A stretch of DNA of 64,000 bases from Deltaproteobacteria bacterium. GTDB taxonomy: Bacteria > Desulfobacterota > Syntrophia > Syntrophales > UBA8958. The stretch lies in assembly GCA_029553375.1 (NCBI GenBank), contig JAKPCH010000095.1:49491-113490 (forward strand). The letters run 5' to 3'. This document shows, piece by piece, positions 47,385 to 63,524 of the stretch; the first letter of the stretch is position 1, and each line of letters starts with the position of its first letter. The notes beneath the pieces were generated by a model that worked only from the letters and a program-made list of their open reading frames with translations, ran no database searches and was not told where the DNA came from. The position numbers and the translations under genes are program-made.

Positions 47385-48551
47385 ATGAGAGACGTTCTGA
47401 ACAGATTCGTCGCCTACTTCCACCAGCCCTTCGTTCAGGTCGCATCCTTCACCCTCCTCGTCGTGCTGTTGAGCTCCTCGTTGGTCTTCTATTTCGAGCA
47501 TGTTCACGGATCGGCCAATATCAACTCCCTCTGGGACGGCGTGTGGTGGTCCATCGTGACCATGGGGACGGTGGGCTACGGCGACAAATACCCCCTGACG
47601 GTCGGGGGGCGTATCGTAGGTATTCTATTGATTTTTTGCGGTGTGGGACTTATGTCTCTCTTCACGGCCACCGTCGCCTCGGCTTTCGTCGAGAGGCGCA
47701 TGAGGGAAGGAAGGGGATTGGAGGCGATCAAGGTGAGAGATCATGTCGTGATCTGCGGGTGGAACAATCACACGGAAGAGGTCCTCCAGGGACTGACGAT
47801 GAGGGGGACGGAAACCCGCACTTTCATCGTTCTCGTCAATGAACTCCCGTCCGACGACCTGGAGGCCCTGCGCCTGAAGTACGGGGGGACAAGGTTAAGG
47901 TTCCTGAGGGGCGATTTTACCCACGAAGAGGTGCTGATGAAGGCGAACATCGCCAAGGCCGCCGCCGTCGTCATCATGGCCGACCTGTCGGGGGATCACC
48001 CCCGCGACCGGCTCGACCAGCGGACCACCCTGGCCGCCCTGACGGTCAAATCCCTGGCACCCACCGTGAGGACCGTCGCCGAGCTCATCGATTCCCAAAA
48101 CGTGCCCCACCTCAGGAGGGCCAACGTGGAGGAGATCATCGTCCGCGGGGAATACGTGGCCTCCCTCTTGGCGGGTTCGGTGAATTCCCCGGGCCTCACC
48201 AGGGTCGTGTCGAACATCATGGGCAGCGGCGCCAAAAACAGCTTCCGGAGGGTCCCCATACCGGCCGATTACGTGGGTCGCCCCGCCCGGGATCTGATCG
48301 GCCATTTCCGCAAGGAGAACGCCCTCTTCATCGGTATCCTGAAAGAAAGGAAGGCCATGAAACTGGAGGATATCCTCACGGACGACACCTCCGTCATCGA
48401 TCGGTTCATCAGGGAGAGGCTCCGGGAGGCCAAGCGGGAATTCGTCGTCGAGAAGGACACGATGCAGGCCATCGTGAACCCCGACGACGATTATCTCGTC
48501 CAGGCGGAAGACGCGGCGATCATCATCGCCCGCGTCCCCTCCGCCAAGTGA
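47385..48551 (+). CDS. Potassium channel with RCK (TrkA-N/TrkA-C) domains
   Basis: A two-membrane-segment K+ channel with selectivity filter TVGYGD at residues 62-67, followed by a cytosolic RCK/TrkA-N domain (VVICGWNNHTEEVLQGL), a helical linker and a C-terminal part resembling TrkA-C (YVGRPARDLIGHF... LVQAEDAAIIIARV). The layout matches MthK/Kch-type ligand-gated channels. The next gene, a cyclic-nucleotide-binding protein, starts within its stop codon (GTGA), suggesting linked function; an EBP follows. The gating ligand is unknown: Ca2+, nucleotides or c-di-AMP are possible. Confidence 0.9.
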   Translation: MRDVLNRFVAYFHQPFVQVASFTLLVVLLSSSLVFYFEHVHGSANINSLWDGVWWSIVTMGTVGYGDKYPLTVGGRIVGILLIFCGVGLMSLFTATVASAFVERRMREGRGLEAIKVRDHVVICGWNNHTEEVLQGLTMRGTETRTFIVLVNELPSDDLEALRLKYGGTRLRFLRGDFTHEEVLMKANIAKAAAVVIMADLSGDHPRDRLDQRTTLAALTVKSLAPTVRTVAELIDSQNVPHLRRANVEEIIVRGEYVASLLAGSVNSPGLTRVVSNIMGSGAKNSFRRVPIPADYVGRPARDLIGHFRKENALFIGILKERKAMKLEDILTDDTSVIDRFIRERLREAKREFVVEKDTMQAIVNPDDDYLVQAEDAAIIIARVPSAK

Positions 48552-51735: not shown

Positions 51736-51778
51736 GGCGGATGGTTTCGGTTCCCTCCTTTCCCATCCGCCTTTTTTT
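51736..51778 (+). terminator. Hairpin 3, Rho-independent terminator
   Basis: Perfect 9-bp stem GGCGGATGG/CCATCCGCC with an 18-nt loop containing CCCTCCTTT, followed by seven T residues. Related to hairpin 1 by a compensatory G-C to A-T change. The T run overlaps the stop of ychF on the other strand. Confidence 0.85.
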
Positions 51779-52871
51779 ATACGTTGAACCTGAACAGGGC
51801 GATGTCCCCGTCCTTGATCTCGTAATCCTTCCCCTCGGACCGTATCAGGCCTTTTTCCTTGGCCTGTGCCATTCCCCCCGCCGCCATGAATTCGTCGAAA
51901 TGGATGATCTCGGCCCTGATGAAACCCCTCTCCATGTCGCTGTGGATCTTTCCCGCCGCCTGGGGGGCCCGGGTGCCCCGGGGGATGGTCCAGGCCCGCA
52001 GTTCCGGCCCGACGGTGGTGTAGAAGGTGATGAGGTCCAAGAGGGAATAACCTTCCCGGATGAGTTTGACGAGCCCCGACTCCTCCAGACCCAGGTCTTC
52101 CAGGAAGGCCTGGCGTTCCTCCGGGTCGAGTTCGGCCATCTCCGCCTCCAGGTCGCCGCAGATGACCACCATGCCTGCCCCGTCCCGTGCGGCGACTTGA
52201 CGGACCTTTTCGATGTAGGTCCCTCCCCCCCTTAGTTCTTTCTCGCTCACGTTGGCGACGTACAGGACCTTTTTGGCCGTCAGGAGATGGAGGTCCTTGA
52301 GGGCCTCCCCGGCCTCTCCGCCGAGGGACAGGGTGTAGGCCGGCAAACCCCGGCCGAGGGCGTCTTTCAGGGCGGCGTAGACCTCGAGGCTCTTGGCGGC
52401 GGCCCGGTCGCCGGCCTTGGCGGCCTTCTCCGTCTTCGCGATCCGCCTCTCCAGGGTCTCCAGGTCCGCCAGGAGGAGCTCCGTCTTGACGATCTCGATA
52501 TCCCGGGCCGGGTCGATGGTCCCGTCCATGTGGACCACGTCTGGATTGTCGAAGCAGCGCACGATATGGACCACCGCGTCCACCTCGCGGATGTGCCCGA
52601 GAAACTTGTTCCCCAGGCCTTCGCCGCGGCTCGCCCCCTTGACGAGGCCGGCGATGTCGAGGAATTCCATGACCGTCGGTGTGACCCGCTGGGGCTTGAC
52701 CCTTTGGGCGATGAGTTCCAGGCGCCTGTCGGGGACGGCCACGACGCCCACGTTCGGTTCGATGGTGCAGAAGGGATAGTTGGCGACGGCCGCGCCCGCC
52801 GCCGTCAGGGCGTTGAAGATGGTGGATTTACCCACGTTGGGGAGACCGATGATACCGCAGCGGAAGCCCAT
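51777..52871 (-). CDS. ychF: Redox-regulated ATPase YchF (Obg family)
   Basis: YchF is a ribosome-associated Obg-family P-loop protein that prefers ATP to GTP. The N terminus FRCGIIGLPNVGKSTIFNALT holds the P loop, followed by DIAGLVKGASRGEGLGNKFLGHIREVD and the altered base-specificity motif NVSE where GTPases have NKXD. The C-terminal TGS-like domain ends GKDYEIKDGDIALFRFNV, the family hallmark. At 364 residues it is complete. It has its own TTGACA promoter and is separated from hppA by a terminator. Confidence 0.95.
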   Translation of the reverse strand: MGFRCGIIGLPNVGKSTIFNALTAAGAAVANYPFCTIEPNVGVVAVPDRRLELIAQRVKPQRVTPTVMEFLDIAGLVKGASRGEGLGNKFLGHIREVDAVVHIVRCFDNPDVVHMDGTIDPARDIEIVKTELLLADLETLERRIAKTEKAAKAGDRAAAKSLEVYAALKDALGRGLPAYTLSLGGEAGEALKDLHLLTAKKVLYVANVSEKELRGGGTYIEKVRQVAARDGAGMVVICGDLEAEMAELDPEERQAFLEDLGLEESGLVKLIREGYSLLDLITFYTTVGPELRAWTIPRGTRAPQAAGKIHSDMERGFIRAEIIHFDEFMAAGGMAQAKEKGLIRSEGKDYEIKDGDIALFRFNV

Positions 52872-53004: not shown

Positions 53005-55446
53005 TCAGCCCAGCTTCTCCGTCGAGATGCGCATGGCGTAGAAGGAGCGGTAGACGAAGATCAGGGCGATGACCAAGAAGGTAACGGCAAGACCGAGCTT
53101 CAGACCGAGGTTCGTCATGGTCACGGCGATCTCGACGGCGAGGAGGCCGAAGAGGGTCGTGAACTTGATGACGGGGTTCATGGAGACGGATGACGTATCC
53201 TTGAAGGGGTCGCCGACGGTGTCGCCCACGACGGTCGCCTCATGGAGGGGCGTGTTCTTCTGCCTCAGGTCGACCTCGACGATCTTCTTGCCGTTATCCC
53301 AGCAGCCGCCGGCGTTCGCCATGAAGATGGCCTGGAAGAGGCCGAAGAAGGCGATGCCGATCAGGTAGCCGATGAAGAAGTAGGGGTTGAAGAAGGCCAG
53401 ACCCAGGGCCATGAAGAAGATGACGATGAAGATGTTGATCATCCCCTTCTGGGCGTAGACCGTGCAGATCCGGACGACTTCCTTGCTGTCCTCGATGGAG
53501 GCCTGGGCCTTGTCGAGGTTGATGTTTTCCTTGATGTAGACCACCGCCCGGTAGGCGCCGGTGACGACGGCCTGGGTGGAGGCGCCGGTGAACCAGTAGA
53601 TGACGCAGCCGCCCATGATGAGACCGAGGATGATCTCCGGCTGGACGAGGCTCAGCTTGGCGATGACCTGGCCGAACACCTTCTCCAGGAGGATGATGAT
53701 GCCGAAGACCATGGTCGTGGCGCCGACGACGGCCGTACCGATGAGCACCGGCTTGGCCGTGGCCTTGAAGGTGTTGCCCGCGCCGTCACCCGACTCGAGG
53801 TAGTGCTTGGAAAGCTCGAAATCGGGCTGGACGCCGAAGTGCTTCTGGACCACCTCGGCGGCGTCGGGGCGGGATTCGATCATGGAGAGCTCGTAGATGG
53901 ACTGGGCGTTGTCGGAGACGGGGCCAAAGCTGTCGACGGCGATCGTCACGGGACCCATGCCGAGGAAACCGAAGGCCACCAGACCGAAGGCGAAGACGGG
54001 GGCGGCGAACTTGTAGGCCGGGGGCATGATGTCCATGACCGAGGGGCTCTGGGAGACCAGGTAGGCGATGAGCATCAGCACCAAAATGACGAGGCCCTCC
54101 CAGAAGGCCGAGAAGTTACCGGCGACGAAGCCCGAGAGGATGTTCAGAGAAGGACCGCCCTGACGGGAGGCGTTGACGACCTCCTCACAGTGACGGGAGC
54201 TGGTGCTGGTGAAGATCTTGGTGAACTCCGGGATCAGGGCGCCGGCGATGGTGCCGCAGCTGATGATGATGGCCAGGGCCAGCCAGAGGGAGATCCCCCC
54301 CACATGGGGCACGTCGGCCAAAAGGACATAGCTGGCCGCGAAGGTCACGGCTATGGAAACGAGGGAGGTGATCCACACCAGGTTGGTCAGGACGTGCTCG
54401 AAGTTGAATTCCGACTTGCCGGCGAAGAGCGAGCGGCTCAGGGAGTCGTTGACGAAATAGGAGACGAGAGAGGTGAGGATCATGAGGATACGCATGGCGA
54501 AGATCCAGACGATGAGTTTGCCTCCCATGAGGGGGTTGTCGGCGAGGGCCAGGGCCAAAAAGGCGATGAGGGCCACGCCGGTGACGCCGTAGGTCTCGAA
54601 GCCGTCCGCCGTGGGGCCGACGCTGTCACCCGCGTTGTCGCCCGTGCAGTCGGCGATGACGCCCGGGTTCTTGGGGTCGTCCTCGGGGAGGTGGAAGATG
54701 ATCTTCATGAGGTCCGAACCGATGTCGGCGATCTTGGTGAAGATACCACCGCAGATACGGAGGGCGCTGGCGCCGAGGGACTCACCGATGGCGAAACCGA
54801 TGAAGCAGGGACCGGAGAGCTCCTTGGGGATGTAGGCCAGGATGAGGATCATGAAGAAGAGCTCGATGCTGACCAGAAGCAGACCGACGCTCATGCCGGA
54901 CCTAAGACAGATGTTGATGATGCTCAGGGGGTCGCCGCTGAGGGAGGCGAAGGCCGCCCGGGAGTTGGCCACGGTGTTGATCCTGATACCGAACCAGGCG
55001 ACACCGTAGGAACCGAGGATCCCCAGGATGGAGCAGACGAGGATCACCATGATCTCCCCCATGGGCATGTGGGACAGACCGCCGAAGTAGTAGACGATAC
55101 AGATGGCGATCAGGATCCACAGGGCCGTGAGGAACTTACCCTGCTGGATGACGTAGGTCTTGCAGGTCTCCCAGATGGTCTGAGAGACGTCGAGCATGGC
55201 CTGGTGGGCCGGCAGGTTCCTCGTCTGGGTGTACTGCATCCAACCGAAGATCATGCCGATAGCGCAGATGACGAGGCCCAGATTCAGGATCAGCATCCCG
55301 CTCAGGGCTCCGCCCATGAAGCTGACCTGGCTGAGGTCGGGCAATTTAATGTCCGCCTCACCGGCAAGGGCCGCCGTCGCCGACAGCAACAGCGTCAGCG
55401 CGAGGGCGGCGCATACGGAAAAAACTCTACCTTTACCTTTGAACAT
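53005..55446 (-). CDS. hppA: Membrane-bound proton-translocating pyrophosphatase, divergent type
   Basis: It couples pyrophosphate hydrolysis to ion pumping, and in energy-limited anaerobes it recovers energy from PPi made by acyl-CoA synthetases. The core motifs are GGGIFTK-like CGGIFTKIADIGSDL, PEDDPKNPGVIADCTGDNAGD and ADGFETYG, and a second acidic site in VVGDTVGDPFKDT. GAGNTFKATAKP has Lys where K+-dependent enzymes have Ala, predicting a K+-independent H+ pump. It departs from the consensus in many motif positions, so it may belong to the divergent clade. A signal-like N terminus precedes about 16 membrane segments. I start at ATG 55446, seven bases after GGAGG; ATG 55449 overlaps the pth stop. 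Confidence 0.93.
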   Translation of the reverse strand: MFKGKGRVFSVCAALALTLLLSATAALAGEADIKLPDLSQVSFMGGALSGMLILNLGLVICAIGMIFGWMQYTQTRNLPAHQAMLDVSQTIWETCKTYVIQQGKFLTALWILIAICIVYYFGGLSHMPMGEIMVILVCSILGILGSYGVAWFGIRINTVANSRAAFASLSGDPLSIINICLRSGMSVGLLLVSIELFFMILILAYIPKELSGPCFIGFAIGESLGASALRICGGIFTKIADIGSDLMKIIFHLPEDDPKNPGVIADCTGDNAGDSVGPTADGFETYGVTGVALIAFLALALADNPLMGGKLIVWIFAMRILMILTSLVSYFVNDSLSRSLFAGKSEFNFEHVLTNLVWITSLVSIAVTFAASYVLLADVPHVGGISLWLALAIIISCGTIAGALIPEFTKIFTSTSSRHCEEVVNASRQGGPSLNILSGFVAGNFSAFWEGLVILVLMLIAYLVSQSPSVMDIMPPAYKFAAPVFAFGLVAFGFLGMGPVTIAVDSFGPVSDNAQSIYELSMIESRPDAAEVVQKHFGVQPDFELSKHYLESGDGAGNTFKATAKPVLIGTAVVGATTMVFGIIILLEKVFGQVIAKLSLVQPEIILGLIMGGCVIYWFTGASTQAVVTGAYRAVVYIKENINLDKAQASIEDSKEVVRICTVYAQKGMINIFIVIFFMALGLAFFNPYFFIGYLIGIAFFGLFQAIFMANAGGCWDNGKKIVEVDLRQKNTPLHEATVVGDTVGDPFKDTSSVSMNPVIKFTTLFGLLAVEIAVTMTNLGLKLGLAVTFLVIALIFVYRSFYAMRISTEKLG

Positions 55447-55448
55447 CA

Positions 55449-56042
55449 TTAAACCTCCTCTTCGAAATTACTGACGTCCTTTCTGTGATATCTGTTCATA
55501 GCCGCCTGGATTCCGTGGGTGATCATGAACGACGCCGCCTCGACGGCTGTGGTAACAACCTCGGGCAGGCGCTGTATCTCTTCCGGCGAGAAGGGGCTCA
55601 GGACGTACGAATCGACCATCGTCTTCACAGGGGGTCTGCCGATGCCCAGGCGCACCCGCCGGAAACCCTGTTGACCGAGACGCTCCATGATCGACTGCAG
55701 TCCCTTGTGCCCCCCATGACCCCCCCCTGCCTTCAGCCGCACGGCGGTGAAGGGCAGATCGAGATCATCATGGACGACTATCAAATCATCCGGGGACGGT
55801 ATCTTAAAATATTCAAAGAGCCCCGAGACGGCCTGGCCGCTCAGGTTCATGAAGGTCTGGGGTTCGGCGACGATGACTTTCTCGTCCCCGATCCTCCCCT
55901 TCCCGTAGAGGGAGGAGAATCCCTTCGTCCTCAGGTCTATGTCGAATTCCTCCGCCAGCCTCTCCACGACGAGAAAGCCGATGTTGTGACGGGTGAATCG
56001 ATATTGCCCGCCGGGATTCCCCAGTCCCACGATCAGTTTCAA
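55449..56042 (-). CDS. pth: Peptidyl-tRNA hydrolase
   Basis: Pth frees tRNA from dropped-off peptidyl-tRNA. The start MKLIVGLGNPGGQY, catalytic His in FTRHNIGF, PQTFMNLSG and DDLDLPFTAVRLKAGGGHGGHKGL are family motifs. The Asn usual in GGHNGL is Lys here (GGHKGL), a position known to vary. The 197 residues are normal. The start is TTG, with AGGTGA upstream. It follows rplY in the classic prs-rplY-pth order. Confidence 0.94.
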   Translation of the reverse strand: MKLIVGLGNPGGQYRFTRHNIGFLVVERLAEEFDIDLRTKGFSSLYGKGRIGDEKVIVAEPQTFMNLSGQAVSGLFEYFKIPSPDDLIVVHDDLDLPFTAVRLKAGGGHGGHKGLQSIMERLGQQGFRRVRLGIGRPPVKTMVDSYVLSPFSPEEIQRLPEVVTTAVEAASFMITHGIQAAMNRYHRKDVSNFEEEV

Positions 56043-57681: not shown

Positions 57682-57756
57682 TGGCTGGGGCGGGAGGATT
57701 CGAACCTCCGCGTGCAAGATCCAAAATCTTGTGTCTTACCGCTTGACGACGCCCCA
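57682..57756 (-). tRNA. tRNA-Gln (UUG)
   Basis: A 75-nt tRNA on the minus strand with acceptor TGGGGCG/CGCCCCA, discriminator G and encoded CCA. Anticodon stem CAAGA/TCTTG with loop TTTTGGA gives TTG (glutamine CAA). It sits between ispE and prs and is probably processed from the operon transcript. Confidence 0.95.
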
Positions 57757-57807: not shown

Positions 57808-58653
57808 TCAGCGCCCCTCCGTGTAGGAGCTCACCCTGAACACGTCCCAGGGATAACGCCCCCCGAGAGACCTCTCGGCCTCGATCGCCGCCTCCTCGTC
57901 CGCGAAGAGGCCGAAGACCGTCGGCCCGCTGCCGGACATCAGGGCGCCGAGGGCGCCGTGATGGAGAAGGACGTCCTTTATCTCCCCGATGACGGGGTGC
58001 AAGCGGATAGACACCGCTTCCAGGTCGTTGTGGAGCCCCGCGGCCACATCCTGGACCGTCGAAAATCGAGGGATGCTATAATGGATCGGTACGTTTGTCA
58101 ACGCTAAATTAAGGCCTTTGTAAACGAGGGGGGTGGGTAGTTCGAAACGGGGATTGACCAATAAAAAGGAAAGTTTGGGTAGGTCCGACAGGGGTTCGAG
58201 GCGATCGCCGATCCCGAAGGCCCAGGCCGTCCCCCGGCCGATGAAGAAGGGGACGTCGGCCCCCAGTTGGGCCCCCATTTTCATCAACCTAGCTTGGGGC
58301 AGGCGGTTTCCCGTCATTTCGTTAACGGCCAGGAGGGTCGTCGCCGCGTCGGAGCTCCCGCCGCCGAGGCCGGCGGCGGTGGGGATCTTCTTGACGAGGG
58401 TGATATGGAGGCCGAAGGGGGGGTCGAGGAGGTCCAGGATCTTCTTCGCCGCGCGGAAGACGAGGTTGCCCTCGTCCTCGGGGAGGCCGGAGCCGGGGCA
58501 TCTCAGGGAGACGCCCCGGCTGGTCTTCTCGAAGATCAGCTCGTCGCAGAGACTCACGCGGTGCATGAGGGTGGCCAGGTCGTGGTAGCCGTCCTCCCTC
58601 CGGCGCAGGACCTTGAGGTGGAGGTTGACCTTGGCCGGGGCAAGGCGTCTCAT
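57808..58653 (-). CDS. ispE: 4-diphosphocytidyl-2-C-methyl-D-erythritol kinase
   Basis: IspE phosphorylates CDP-methylerythritol in the MEP isoprenoid pathway. The GHMP-kinase signature [15 protein letters not shown] is clear, with [10 protein letters not shown] at the N terminus and [12 protein letters not shown] at the C terminus. At 281 residues it is standard. It lies between the DUF1844 gene and tRNA-Gln on the same strand, the usual Desulfobacterota order. Confidence 0.94.
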
Positions 58654-58654
58654 C

Positions 58655-59062
58655 TCATGACGATTCCTTCACGTAGCGCATCCGGAGCTCGAAAAGGATG
58701 CCGTCGATGAGGGACTTTTCGTCGGCGTCGAGGTTCCCCTCGGTCTTGGACCTCAGCATGGCGATGGTGTCGATGGCATGTTTGGCCGCGGCCAGGTTCT
58801 TCTTGGTCTGCCCGGAGGCGGGGTCGGGGAAGTCGCCGAAGTGGAACATGGCCGTCGTGCTGAGGGACAGGATGAAGTTGGCGAAGTTGACCTCGGGGTA
58901 GAAGTAGTCCTCCGAGGCCTCTTCCCGTGGTCCCGTTTCCCTCTTCGGTTCCTCTTTGGGCCTTTCCTGTTCCCGGGGCGCCTCCTGGGTCTCCCGGGTC
59001 TCACCCTTTTCGTCGAAGATGCGGCGGTCCCGAACGACGAATCCTTTCTTTTCCTCCTCCAT
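58655..59062 (-). CDS. DUF1844 protein
   Basis: A 135-residue protein: a long charged, low-complexity N terminus (many Glu, Arg, Lys and Pro, about residues 1-50) and a DUF1844 domain (VNFANFILSLSTTAMFHFGDFPDP... AAKHAIDTIAMLRSKTEGNL). The function is unknown; in Desulfobacterota it is regularly found next to ispE. It nearly abuts the ispE start. Confidence 0.84.
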   Translation of the reverse strand: MEEEKKGFVVRDRRIFDEKGETRETQEAPREQERPKEEPKRETGPREEASEDYFYPEVNFANFILSLSTTAMFHFGDFPDPASGQTKKNLAAAKHAIDTIAMLRSKTEGNLDADEKSLIDGILFELRMRYVKESS

Positions 59063-59097: not shown

Positions 59098-59949
59098 TCA
59101 ATAGACGGGTCTCATGGCCCGCAGACGGGCGATCCGTTCCTCGATGGGGGGGTGGGTGCTGAAGAGGTTCATCAGGGATCTTCCCGTCAGGGGATTGACG
59201 ATGAACATGTGGGCCGTGGACGGGTTCGCGTCCATGGGGACCACCTGGGACGCCCGGGACAGCTTCTCCAGGGCCCCCGCCAGGCCGTAGGGCTTGCCGG
59301 AGATACGGGCCCCGCCCTCGTCGGCCATGTATTCCCGGGAACGGGAGATGGCCATCTGGATGATCGTGGCGGCGATGGGGGCGAGGACGGCCATCAGGAT
59401 CAGGCCGATGATATTCCCCCCGCCTTCGTCGTCGTCCCGGCTCACCCCCCCGAAGACGGCGGCCCACTGGGCCATGTTGGCCAGCATGACGACGGCGCCG
59501 GCGAGGGTGGCGGCGATGGAGCCGATGAGGATGTCCCTGTTCTTGATGTGGGTGAGCTCATGGGCGAGGACGCCCTCGAGCTCGTCCCGGTCCAGGATGC
59601 GGAGGATGCCCTCCGTCACGGCCACCACGGCGTGCTTCTCGTCTCTCCCCGTGGCGAAGGCGTTGGGCGTGTCCTGGGGGATGATGTAGACCCGGGGCAT
59701 GGGCAGGCCCGCCCGCGCCGCCAGGTCGGCCACCATCCGGTAGAGTTCCGGGGCCTCGTCGGGCGTCACCTCCTGGGCGCTGTACATGCTCAGGACGATG
59801 CGGTCGGAGAACCAGTAGGCCCCGAAGTTCATGATCAGGGCAAGGACGAAGGCGACCACCACCCCACCCTTGCCGCCGACGAGACCGCCGATCAGCATGA
59901 GGAGGCCCGTCAGGGCCCCGAGCAGCAGAGCGGTACGGAACGTGTTCAT
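59098..59949 (-). CDS. htpX: Zinc metalloprotease HtpX
   Basis: HtpX is an inner-membrane M48 protease that removes damaged membrane proteins under stress, partly overlapping with FtsH. Two N-terminal membrane segments, the zinc motif HELTH (130-134), a second membrane pair, and the third zinc ligand in [14 protein letters not shown]. At 283 residues it is normal. AGGAGGAG stands before the ATG. It directly follows clpB, joining two proteostasis genes. Confidence 0.95.
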
Positions 59950-59978: not shown

Positions 59979-62576
59979 TTAAGCGCCCTCCTTGCGGGAG
60001 AAGGCGAGTTCTCCCCCGGGGGCGAGGTCAACGACGATGGAATCCCCGTCCTTGAAGGTGCCGTCGAGGATCTTCATGGCCAGGGGGTCCAGGACCAGCT
60101 TCTGGAGGGCCCTTTTCAGGGGCCGGGCCCCGTAGACGGGGCTGTAGCCGACGGAGGCAATATAATTTTTCGCCTCTTCTGTCAATTCCATGGTCATCTT
60201 CCTCTCCGCCAGCCTCCTGGCGATGAGGCGGATCTGGATCTCCACGATCCTCTCGATGTCGCCGCGGCTGAGGGAGCGGAACATGATGATGTCGTCGATC
60301 CGGTTGAGGAACTCCGGCTTGAAGGTCGCCTTCAGGACCTCGAAGGTCCGCTCCCGTTTCTCCTCCTCGTCGAGGGAGAAGTCCTGGATCCACTGGCTGC
60401 CCACGTTCGAGGTCATGATGACCACCGTGTTCTTGAAATCCACGGTCCGGCCGTGGCCGTCCGTCAACCTCCCGTCGTCCAGGATCTGGAGGAGGATGTT
60501 GAAGACGTCGGGGTGGGCCTTCTCGATCTCGTCGAAGAGGAGGACGGCGTAGGGCCTCCGGCGGACGGCCTCCGTGAGGTAGCCGCCCTCGTCGTAGCCG
60601 ACGTACCCGGGGGGCGCCCCGATGAGGCGCGCCACGGCGTGTTTCTCCATGTATTCCGACATGTCGATGCGGATCATGGCCTGTTCGTTGTCGAACATGA
60701 ATTCCGCCAGGGCCCTGGCCAGTTCCGTCTTACCCACCCCCGTGGGGCCGAGGAAGATGAAGGAGCCGATGGGCCGGTTGGGGTCCTGGAGGCCCGAGCG
60801 GGCCCGCCTCAGGGCGCTGGAGACGGCGGCGATGCCCTCGTCCTGGCCGATGACCCTTTCCTTGAGACGTTCCTCCATGTGGATGAGTTTCTGGACGTCG
60901 CTCTCCATCATGCGGGCCACGGGTATGCCCGTCCACTTGGCGACGACCTCGGCCACGTCCTCGGCGTCCACCTCCTCCTTGAGCATCTTGCGCTCCCTCT
61001 GGATCTCCTCGAGGCGGCGCTGCTCCTCCTCCATGGCCCGGTTGAGGGCCACGAGCTTCCCGTACCTGATCTCCGCCGCCCTGGCGAGGTCACCTTCCCG
61101 CTGGGCGTTCTGCTCCTCCAGCTTGAGCTGCTCGATCTGGCCCTTGAGGGACTGGATCTGTTTGATGGCCTCCTTCTCCCGGTTCCAGTGGGCCTTCATT
61201 TCCTCCATGGAGGCCCGCAGCTGGGCGAGTTCCTCGTCGATCTTGGCCAGGCGGTCCAGGGAGGTCTTATCCGTCTCCTTCTTCAGGGATTGACGCTCGA
61301 TCTCCAGCTGGAGGATCCTCCTCTCCACGGCGTCGATCTCGGCGGGGAGGCTGTCCAGCTCGATCCTCAGCCGCGAGGCCGCCTCGTCGATGAGGTCCAC
61401 CGCCTTGTCCGGGAGGAAGCGGTCGCTGATGTAGCGGTTCGAGAGGGTGGCGGCGGCGATGATGGCCGCGTCCTTGATCCGCACGCCGTGATGCACCTCG
61501 TAACGTTCCTTGAGACCCCTGAGGATGGCGATGGTGTCCTCCACCGTGGGTTCCCTGACCAGGATCGGCTGGAACCTCCGCTCGAGGGCCGGGTCCTTTT
61601 CGATGTGCTTGCGGTACTCGTTGAGGGTCGTCGCACCGATGCACCTCAACTCACCCCGGGCGAGGGCGGGCTTGAGCATGTTCGAGGCGTCCACGGACCC
61701 CTCGGCCGCGCCGGCCCCCACGACGGTGTGGATCTCGTCGATGAAGAGGATGATCTCCCCCTCGGCGTCCGTGACCTCTTTGAGGACGGCCTTGAGGCGT
61801 TCCTCGAACTCGCCCCGGTACTTGGCCCCGGCCACGAGGGCGCCGATGTCGAGGCCCACGACGCGCTTGTCCTTCAGGTTCTCCGGGACGTCGCCGTTGA
61901 CGATCCGCTGGGCCAGACCCTCGACGATGGCCGTCTTGCCGACGCCCGGCTCCCCGATGAGGACGGGGTTGTTCTTCGTCCGGCGGGAGAGGACCTGGAG
62001 GATCCGGCGGATCTCGTCGTCCCGGCCGATGACGGGGTCGAAGGCCCCCTTCGCCGCCAACTCGTTGAAGTCTTTGGCGAACCTCTTGAGGGCCTGGTAT
62101 TTCTCCTCGGGGTTGGGGTCCGTGATGCGGCTCTTGCCCCGGATCTCCATGAGGGCCTTGAGGAGGGCCTCCCTCGTCACCCCCCACTTCTTGAAGAGGC
62201 GGGCCGTCTCTCCCCCTTTTTCTTCGGCGAAGACGAGGAGGAGGTGCTCCGAGCTGACGTACTCGTCCTTCATGCGGGCCGCTTCCGTCATGGCGTTGTC
62301 GAGGGCCCGGTTGAGGCGCGGCGTGATGTAGATCTGGCCGCCCGCGGCCCCTTCCACCCGGGGGAGTCTCTCCAGGGCCTTGGCGAGGTCGGCTTCCATC
62401 GCCGCCGGGTCGGCGCCGGTCTTCTTCAGGACGGCCCCGGCGATGCCCTCCCGCTGGCGGAGGAGGGACAGAAAGAGGTGCTCCACGTCTATGCCTTGAT
62501 GTCCGTAAGTGCCCGCCAGGGTCTGGGACTCCTGCAGGGCCTCTTGGACCTTGAGGGTCATTTTGTCGAAACGCAT
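59979..62576 (-). CDS. clpB: ATP-dependent disaggregase ClpB
   Basis: ClpB pulls proteins out of aggregates with DnaK. An N domain ([18 protein letters not shown], two repeats), the first AAA module with Walker A GEPGVGKT near residue 200, a long coiled middle domain (about 400-525, [19 protein letters not shown]), and the second AAA module with GPTGVGKT near 600. At 865 residues it is full length. No CIRCE or heat-shock promoter is seen; only 20 bases separate it from the upstream DAC-domain gene, so it is likely read from that promoter. Confidence 0.97.
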
Positions 62577-62596: not shown

Positions 62597-63460
62597 TTAT
62601 GTCGGTTTTTCGATGCTGACCATGATCATGCCGTTCTTGAACACGGTGACGTTTCCCGTCGATTCCGAGAGGACGACCGCCGTGGCCTTGGTGACGCTCG
62701 TGACGCCGGCGGCGGCGATGTGGCGGCTCCCGAGGCCCTGGGGGAAATCCTTGCTGTCGAGGGCGGCGCTGAGATGGCGCCCCGCCGTGATGAGGGTGCC
62801 GTCGTTCCGCAGGACGAAGGCCCCGTCCAGGGCCGAGAATTCCTTGATCGTCTCCTTCAGGTCCGGGTTCAGGATGTTCCGCTCCTCGTCGCTGTAGCCC
62901 AAAAAGGGGTTGATGATCATCTGCCGCGAGAGCTGCAGCACCTTCTCGTGATCCCCGATGATGAAGGTCGTGCCCACCTTGCGGCCCTCGCGCCCCTGGG
63001 CGGCCAGTTCCAGGGCCAGGTTGATCACCGCCCCGAAGACCTCGGGGTAGACCTCCTGGCTGATGTCGGTGAAGTGCTCGGAGGTGAGGATCTCGAACTC
63101 CTTACCCACGTCGATGACGAAGATGCTGTCCACGTAGCCGAAGCGGGGGACGCCGCTGAGGCAGACGAGCTTGTCGCCCTTCGCGAACATGCCGGCGGCG
63201 ATGCCCTTGATGACGGCGATCTTGATCTGCCCCATCCGGGTGAGGGTCACGTTGGGGACCGTCACGACCCGGCATTTGTTCACGAACCGCTCGGGTATGT
63301 TGTTGTCCTTCGTCACCAGGACCAATTCGAAGGGGCATGAGTCCTCCAGCCCCTCCGGCAGTTCCACGGCGGTGTTGGCGTAAATCAGCATGGCCTTCGC
63401 CTCGACTTCTTTGGCGAGGCCGCAGGCCGTGTCCAAGATGGCCCTGTTGATGGTCTTCAT
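62597..63460 (-). CDS. DacZ-like protein: pyruvate-kinase-C-like domain plus DAC (DisA_N) domain
   Basis: Residues about 1-130 resemble the C-terminal alpha/beta domain of pyruvate kinase (AILDTACGLAKEVEAKAMLIYANT). Residues 145-287 form a DAC domain with DGA at 212-214 and, where active diadenylate cyclases have RHR, the sequence SRHIAAAG (246-248). This is the architecture of DacZ, the c-di-AMP synthase known mainly from archaea. It may make c-di-AMP; the Arg-to-Ile change leaves activity open. A TTGACA-17-TAGCTT promoter and GAGGAG box precede the ATG. It leads the clpB-htpX run. Confidence 0.78.
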   Translation of the reverse strand: MKTINRAILDTACGLAKEVEAKAMLIYANTAVELPEGLEDSCPFELVLVTKDNNIPERFVNKCRVVTVPNVTLTRMGQIKIAVIKGIAAGMFAKGDKLVCLSGVPRFGYVDSIFVIDVGKEFEILTSEHFTDISQEVYPEVFGAVINLALELAAQGREGRKVGTTFIIGDHEKVLQLSRQMIINPFLGYSDEERNILNPDLKETIKEFSALDGAFVLRNDGTLITAGRHLSAALDSKDFPQGLGSRHIAAAGVTSVTKATAVVLSESTGNVTVFKNGMIMVSIEKPT

Positions 63461-63495
63461 TGTTCTCCTCTTTCAACCTGTTTATTTTCTTCGCT

Positions 63496-63524
63496 AAGCT
63501 AAGCACGGGGCGGGAAACTGTCAA
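63496..63524 (-). promoter_or_regulatory. Sigma-70 promoter for the DacZ-like/clpB/htpX operon
   Basis: On the minus strand TTGACA, 17 bases and TAGCTT, about 35 bases before the DacZ-like ATG. No heat-shock element is seen. Confidence 0.55.

Follow-up and report, generated by a model that had tools for sequence, protein, structure and literature searches.

Gene content of the dacZ locus

The window, by which we mean the whole 64,000-nucleotide stretch of DNA that was analysed, contains a gene for a diadenylate cyclase, dacZ, followed on the same strand by clpB, htpX, a DUF1844 gene and ispE. The genes and features, all on the minus strand, are listed by their positions in the window:

63496..63524, minus strand: sigma-70-type promoter of dacZ (TTGACA at 63524-63519, a 17 nt spacer, and TAGCTT at 63501-63496)
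63465..63470, minus strand: ribosome-binding site GAGGAG, 4 nt 5' of the dacZ start, read directly from the sequence
62597..63460, minus strand: dacZ, diadenylate cyclase, 287 aa with an ATG start; DacZ_P/PK_C-fold domain at aa ~1-130 and DAC domain at aa ~140-287
63074..63460, minus strand: putative sensor domain with the pyruvate kinase C-terminal fold, N-terminal part of DacZ, from the AlphaFold2 (AF2) model and PDB matches
62819..62827, minus strand: DGA motif, residues 212-214 of DacZ, read directly from the sequence
62717..62725, minus strand: RHI motif at the RHR position, residues 246-248 of DacZ, read directly from the sequence
59979..62576, minus strand: clpB, ATP-dependent disaggregase (TIGR03346, 1358.7 bits, above the cut-off)
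59098..59949, minus strand: htpX, membrane zinc metalloprotease (NF002826, 397.5 bits, above the cut-off)
58655..59062, minus strand: gene for a DUF1844 protein (PF08899, E 1.2e-29)
57808..58653, minus strand: ispE, CDP-methylerythritol kinase (TIGR00154 and NF011202, both above the cut-off)

The genes are separated by 20 nt (dacZ-clpB), 29 nt (clpB-htpX), 35 nt (htpX-DUF1844) and 1 nt (DUF1844-ispE). The initial annotation had placed dacZ at the head of an operon with clpB and htpX, and the common strand and the first two gaps are in agreement with this arrangement, in which the three genes would be transcribed together. A tRNA-Gln gene (57682-57756, minus strand) is found between ispE and prs, within this run of same-strand genes. 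The ORF of prs, a long one with a GTG start, overlaps this tRNA, suggesting that the true prs start is located downstream of it.

Domain architecture and predicted structure

Pfam searches identified DacZ_P (PF21755) at residues 6-126 (E 3.9e-14, 52.8 bits, cut-off 27.4) and the DAC domain (PF02457) at residues 153-278 (E 2.3e-21, 76 bits, cut-off 27). The plain PK_C model gave a weak sequence match to the N-terminus (E 0.036). The top NCBIfam model for the protein was DacZ (NF041371, 138.6 bits), below the 430 bits set as the cut-off for the haloarchaeal equivalog. The CdaA model (TIGR00159) reached 35 bits (cut-off 188.8), with no CdaA_N match in Pfam, and the DisA model (NF010009) reached 22.6 bits (cut-off 201), the DAC domain of the window protein being C-terminal. 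By the broad definition of Braun et al. 2019, a PK_C-fold N-terminal domain joined to a DAC domain, the protein is a DacZ; it is not the haloarchaeal DacZ equivalog, CdaA or DisA. The DacZ layout proposed in the initial annotation is thus borne out by the two domain matches and the best-scoring family model.

The AlphaFold2 model of DacZ, built on a 47-row alignment, had a mean pLDDT of 86.8 and a pTM of 0.83. A Foldseek search with this model matched structures of CdaA/DacA and DisA, several of them with c-di-AMP or another nucleotide bound, so that the DAC domain claimed at first reading is found both in the predicted fold and in the Pfam match. The N-terminal domain modelled alone (AF2 pLDDT 91.0) gave 400 PDB matches at E <= 0.001; among those listed, 49 of 50 were pyruvate kinases by name, with a best TMq of about 0.7. 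The description of this domain as pyruvate-kinase-C-like therefore holds at the fold level, next to the weak PK_C sequence match.

The window protein shares the DAC fold with CdaA/DacA but lacks the CdaA_N membrane domain, and a separate CdaA-YbbR fusion is encoded in the same genome. The fold is also common to DisA, although no DisA linker or helix-hairpin-helix was found in the window protein, and the DAC domain is N-terminal in DisA. With DacZ of Haloferax volcanii (NF041371) it shares the PK_C-fold N-terminus, the DAC domain, the DGA motif and an RHx motif with a hydrophobic third residue; the differences are its bacterial origin, its score for that family, and an operon with clpB here and with mscS2 there.

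Phylogeny and distribution

The dacZ gene is kept across Syntrophales with 58-73% protein identity. In a maximum-likelihood tree of 87 DAC domains that included CdaA of Syntrophales (a quick search, with several long branches), all 79 DacZ rows were on one side of the branch from CdaA, with a support of 100. The window DacZ was located within a Syntrophales branch (support 96), and the archaeal DacZ formed one group (support 93) nested among the bacterial ones. Of the comparison with DacZ, CdaA and DisA suggested initially, this tree covers the first two, and it places the protein within DacZ and well apart from CdaA; DisA was left out of it. In three Methanomicrobiales loci, the DACs are in long ORFs of 556-703 aa, with an apparent PAS domain before the DAC domain.

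The proteins that combine DacZ_P with DAC (PF21755 and PF02457), with both domains above the Pfam gathering scores as in the window protein, are present in several Desulfobacterota orders. The Syntrophales branch differs from the rest in its fixed RHI motif and its fixed clpB neighbour.

Variation at the third position of the RHR motif

Both motif readings of the initial annotation, a retained DGA and RHI in place of RHR, were found as described. It had raised the possibility that RHI marks a variant or degenerate enzyme, or a sensor, an interpretation that was not supported, since this position is occupied by I, M, A, V, L, R, H or T in the DacZ family. Residue 248 was isoleucine in all 47 motif-reaching Syntrophales orthologs first aligned, among them the window protein, and R246 and H247 did not vary either. 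After more loci were added, isoleucine was found, again next to R246 and H247, in 54/54 Syntrophales loci, a few of which represent one genome present in two collections, and part of which are assigned to the order by database labels and similarity. The 20 DacZ proteins of other Desulfobacterota orders contained arginine (7), methionine (6), valine (3), leucine (2), histidine (1) and alanine (1) at this position. All the haloarchaeal proteins above the NF041371 cut-off (18/18) read RHM, and other archaeal DACs have M, A, I, R, T, L or V. Given this variation and the RHM of the haloarchaeal equivalogs, RHI is no sign of degeneration.

Strong conservation is limited to the R-H pair, DGA and the neighbouring Gly/Ser residues: D212, G213 and A214 are each conserved in at least 90% of the 47 DacZ proteins, and the same is true for R246, H247, S265 and S267. 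In three close relatives the DGA motif is replaced by DGS. Six archaeal loci encode DACs with DGV or EGA at this position, and in one of these, possibly an altered enzyme, KHT also takes the place of RHR.

Purified H. volcanii DacZ produces c-di-AMP from ATP in vitro with Mn2+ (PMC6741144), and its motif is presumably RHM, as in the 18 equivalogs. The RHR mutants published for DisA of Mycobacterium tuberculosis (PMC3328451) and CdaM of Mycoplasma bovis (PMC13022847) are triple AAA changes, so the importance of the third arginine is not demonstrated by them. In CdaA of Leptospira interrogans, D172, R203 of the GXRHRXA motif, and S222 were selected as mutation targets on the basis of their contacts with ATP (PMC12974146). 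No assay of a bacterial RHI-type DacZ was found in the literature searched.

A different product, either another dinucleotide or a linear molecule made in a pocket unlike those of DisA and CdaA, could be suggested by the hydrophobic residue after R-H and by SES where CdaA has SEE. This is very unlikely, since the H. volcanii enzyme, of the same architecture, is specific for ATP, and its c-di-AMP product was confirmed by mass spectrometry (PMC6741144).

The second diadenylate cyclase and other c-di-AMP related genes

The genome encodes a second DAC, a 485-aa protein composed of a CdaA membrane domain, a DAC domain and YbbR (L001:1141-2598). Its motif is RHT, which is also found in nearly all CdaA of Syntrophales. 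The third position is therefore a poor guide to DAC activity, and in the DacZ family, where it is free to vary, the residue is probably dispensable. The motif rule should be corrected in this respect: a missing third arginine should not serve to call a DAC inactive.

A sample of 41 genomes of relatives contained dacZ in 26 and cdaA in 27, with both genes in 16, dacZ only in 10 and cdaA only in 11; matches were assigned to one gene or the other from frame length and score, and the counts may be affected by the incompleteness of some genomes. They bear on the alternative that the window protein is a catalytically dead DAC that acts as a c-di-AMP-binding receptor and signals through its N-terminal domain or a partner protein. 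The missing canonical arginine would fit such a receptor, and the CdaA-YbbR protein could supply its ligand. We regard it as unlikely, because in the 10 relatives with no detected cdaA it would leave DacZ as the sole DAC, D212, G213, R246, H247, S265 and S267 are kept throughout the family at the level given above, the active haloarchaeal subfamily is likewise without the third arginine, and the presumed supplier itself departs from RHR.

It is highly likely that the window protein is an active cytosolic c-di-AMP synthase, a bacterial DacZ provided with a metabolite-sensor domain. Two DAC domains would meet head to head with one ATP each; the triphosphates and a metal ion (probably Mn2+) would be positioned by the aspartate of DGA together with R-H and the Gly/Ser residues after it, and c-di-AMP would result from the formation of two 3'-5' bonds. 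Most likely, the PK_C-fold domain at the N-terminus is a metabolite-binding unit that modulates the cyclase.

A downstream circuit is suggested by several candidate parts: a full TrkA, an additional RCK protein, and a DHH-DHHA1 protein of NrnA/DhhP type (317 aa). This last protein is a phosphodiesterase candidate, with c-di-AMP or its linear product as possible substrates. The genome also has RCK-containing transporters. Neither a ydaO riboswitch, rejected on this ground as a c-di-AMP effector, nor a PgpH-type (7TM-HD) phosphodiesterase was found in the genome. A K+ channel-like protein with a TVGYGD filter and an RCK-type domain, recognised by eye, is encoded at 47385-48551 (plus strand) of the window and is a possible c-di-AMP target.

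Promoter conservation and linkage to clpB

The sequence CTTGACA was present in 47 of 52 regions upstream of dacZ against 0.8 expected from shuffling, although these loci are related and the counts are not independent events. It is followed by a 17 nt spacer and a -10-like block, which reads TAGCTT in the window and TATTCT, TAATTT or a similar sequence elsewhere; both the spacer length and the block are conserved. The survival of this element in non-coding DNA, at the protein identity observed across the order, points to function. CIRCE or sigma-32 heat-shock control of dacZ was also considered and rejected, as no consistent match was found upstream and the conserved block is of the sigma-70 type.

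Directly after dacZ and on the same strand, clpB was found in all the Syntrophales loci with room downstream (54/54), mostly within 20 nt. In contrast to this fixed neighbour, htpX is often absent from the cluster, while DUF1844, ispE and prs are usually present downstream. These data also bear on whether dacZ is a decaying gene in the process of being lost, for which the motif change alone could be cited: the ORF is intact, the protein is conserved across the order, the promoter is conserved and the gene order is fixed, which makes decay extremely improbable. The window gene appears to be an ordinary, conserved DacZ, very probably active, and the unexpected feature is its adjacency to clpB throughout the order.

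None of the 20 DacZ loci from other Desulfobacterota orders has clpB beside dacZ, ruling out this linkage as a phylum-wide trait. The neighbours there vary, and include genes for an H+-pyrophosphatase, YchF, Dus, a SpoU methylase and a patatin.

The sigma-70-type promoter of dacZ would drive its expression together with that of clpB (and htpX), so that c-di-AMP synthesis would be co-expressed with protein-quality-control genes. In the literature searched, a connection of ClpB with a diadenylate cyclase did not turn up, and the three papers that matched both appear, by their titles and abstracts, not to address one. It is conceivable, though improbable, that DacZ of Syntrophales ties c-di-AMP to protein quality control, with the PK_C domain reading an energy metabolite, c-di-AMP or DacZ itself adjusting disaggregation by ClpB, and the membrane CdaA serving osmotic control. 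If true, such a tie would add a new branch to c-di-AMP signalling. The fixed dacZ-clpB order runs through an order of syntrophic bacteria.

Other arrangements were observed around dacZ. In three loci it is followed by a gene for a protein that by eye resembles a ribosome hibernation factor; the one scanned had no Pfam match at 1e-8. In another Desulfobacterota lineage (four loci), dacZ is located between ychF and the gene for a membrane H+-pyrophosphatase. The window also contains ychF (51777-52871) and an H+-pyrophosphatase gene (53005-55449), ~7-11 kb downstream of dacZ, and the two H+-pyrophosphatases are only about 30% identical.
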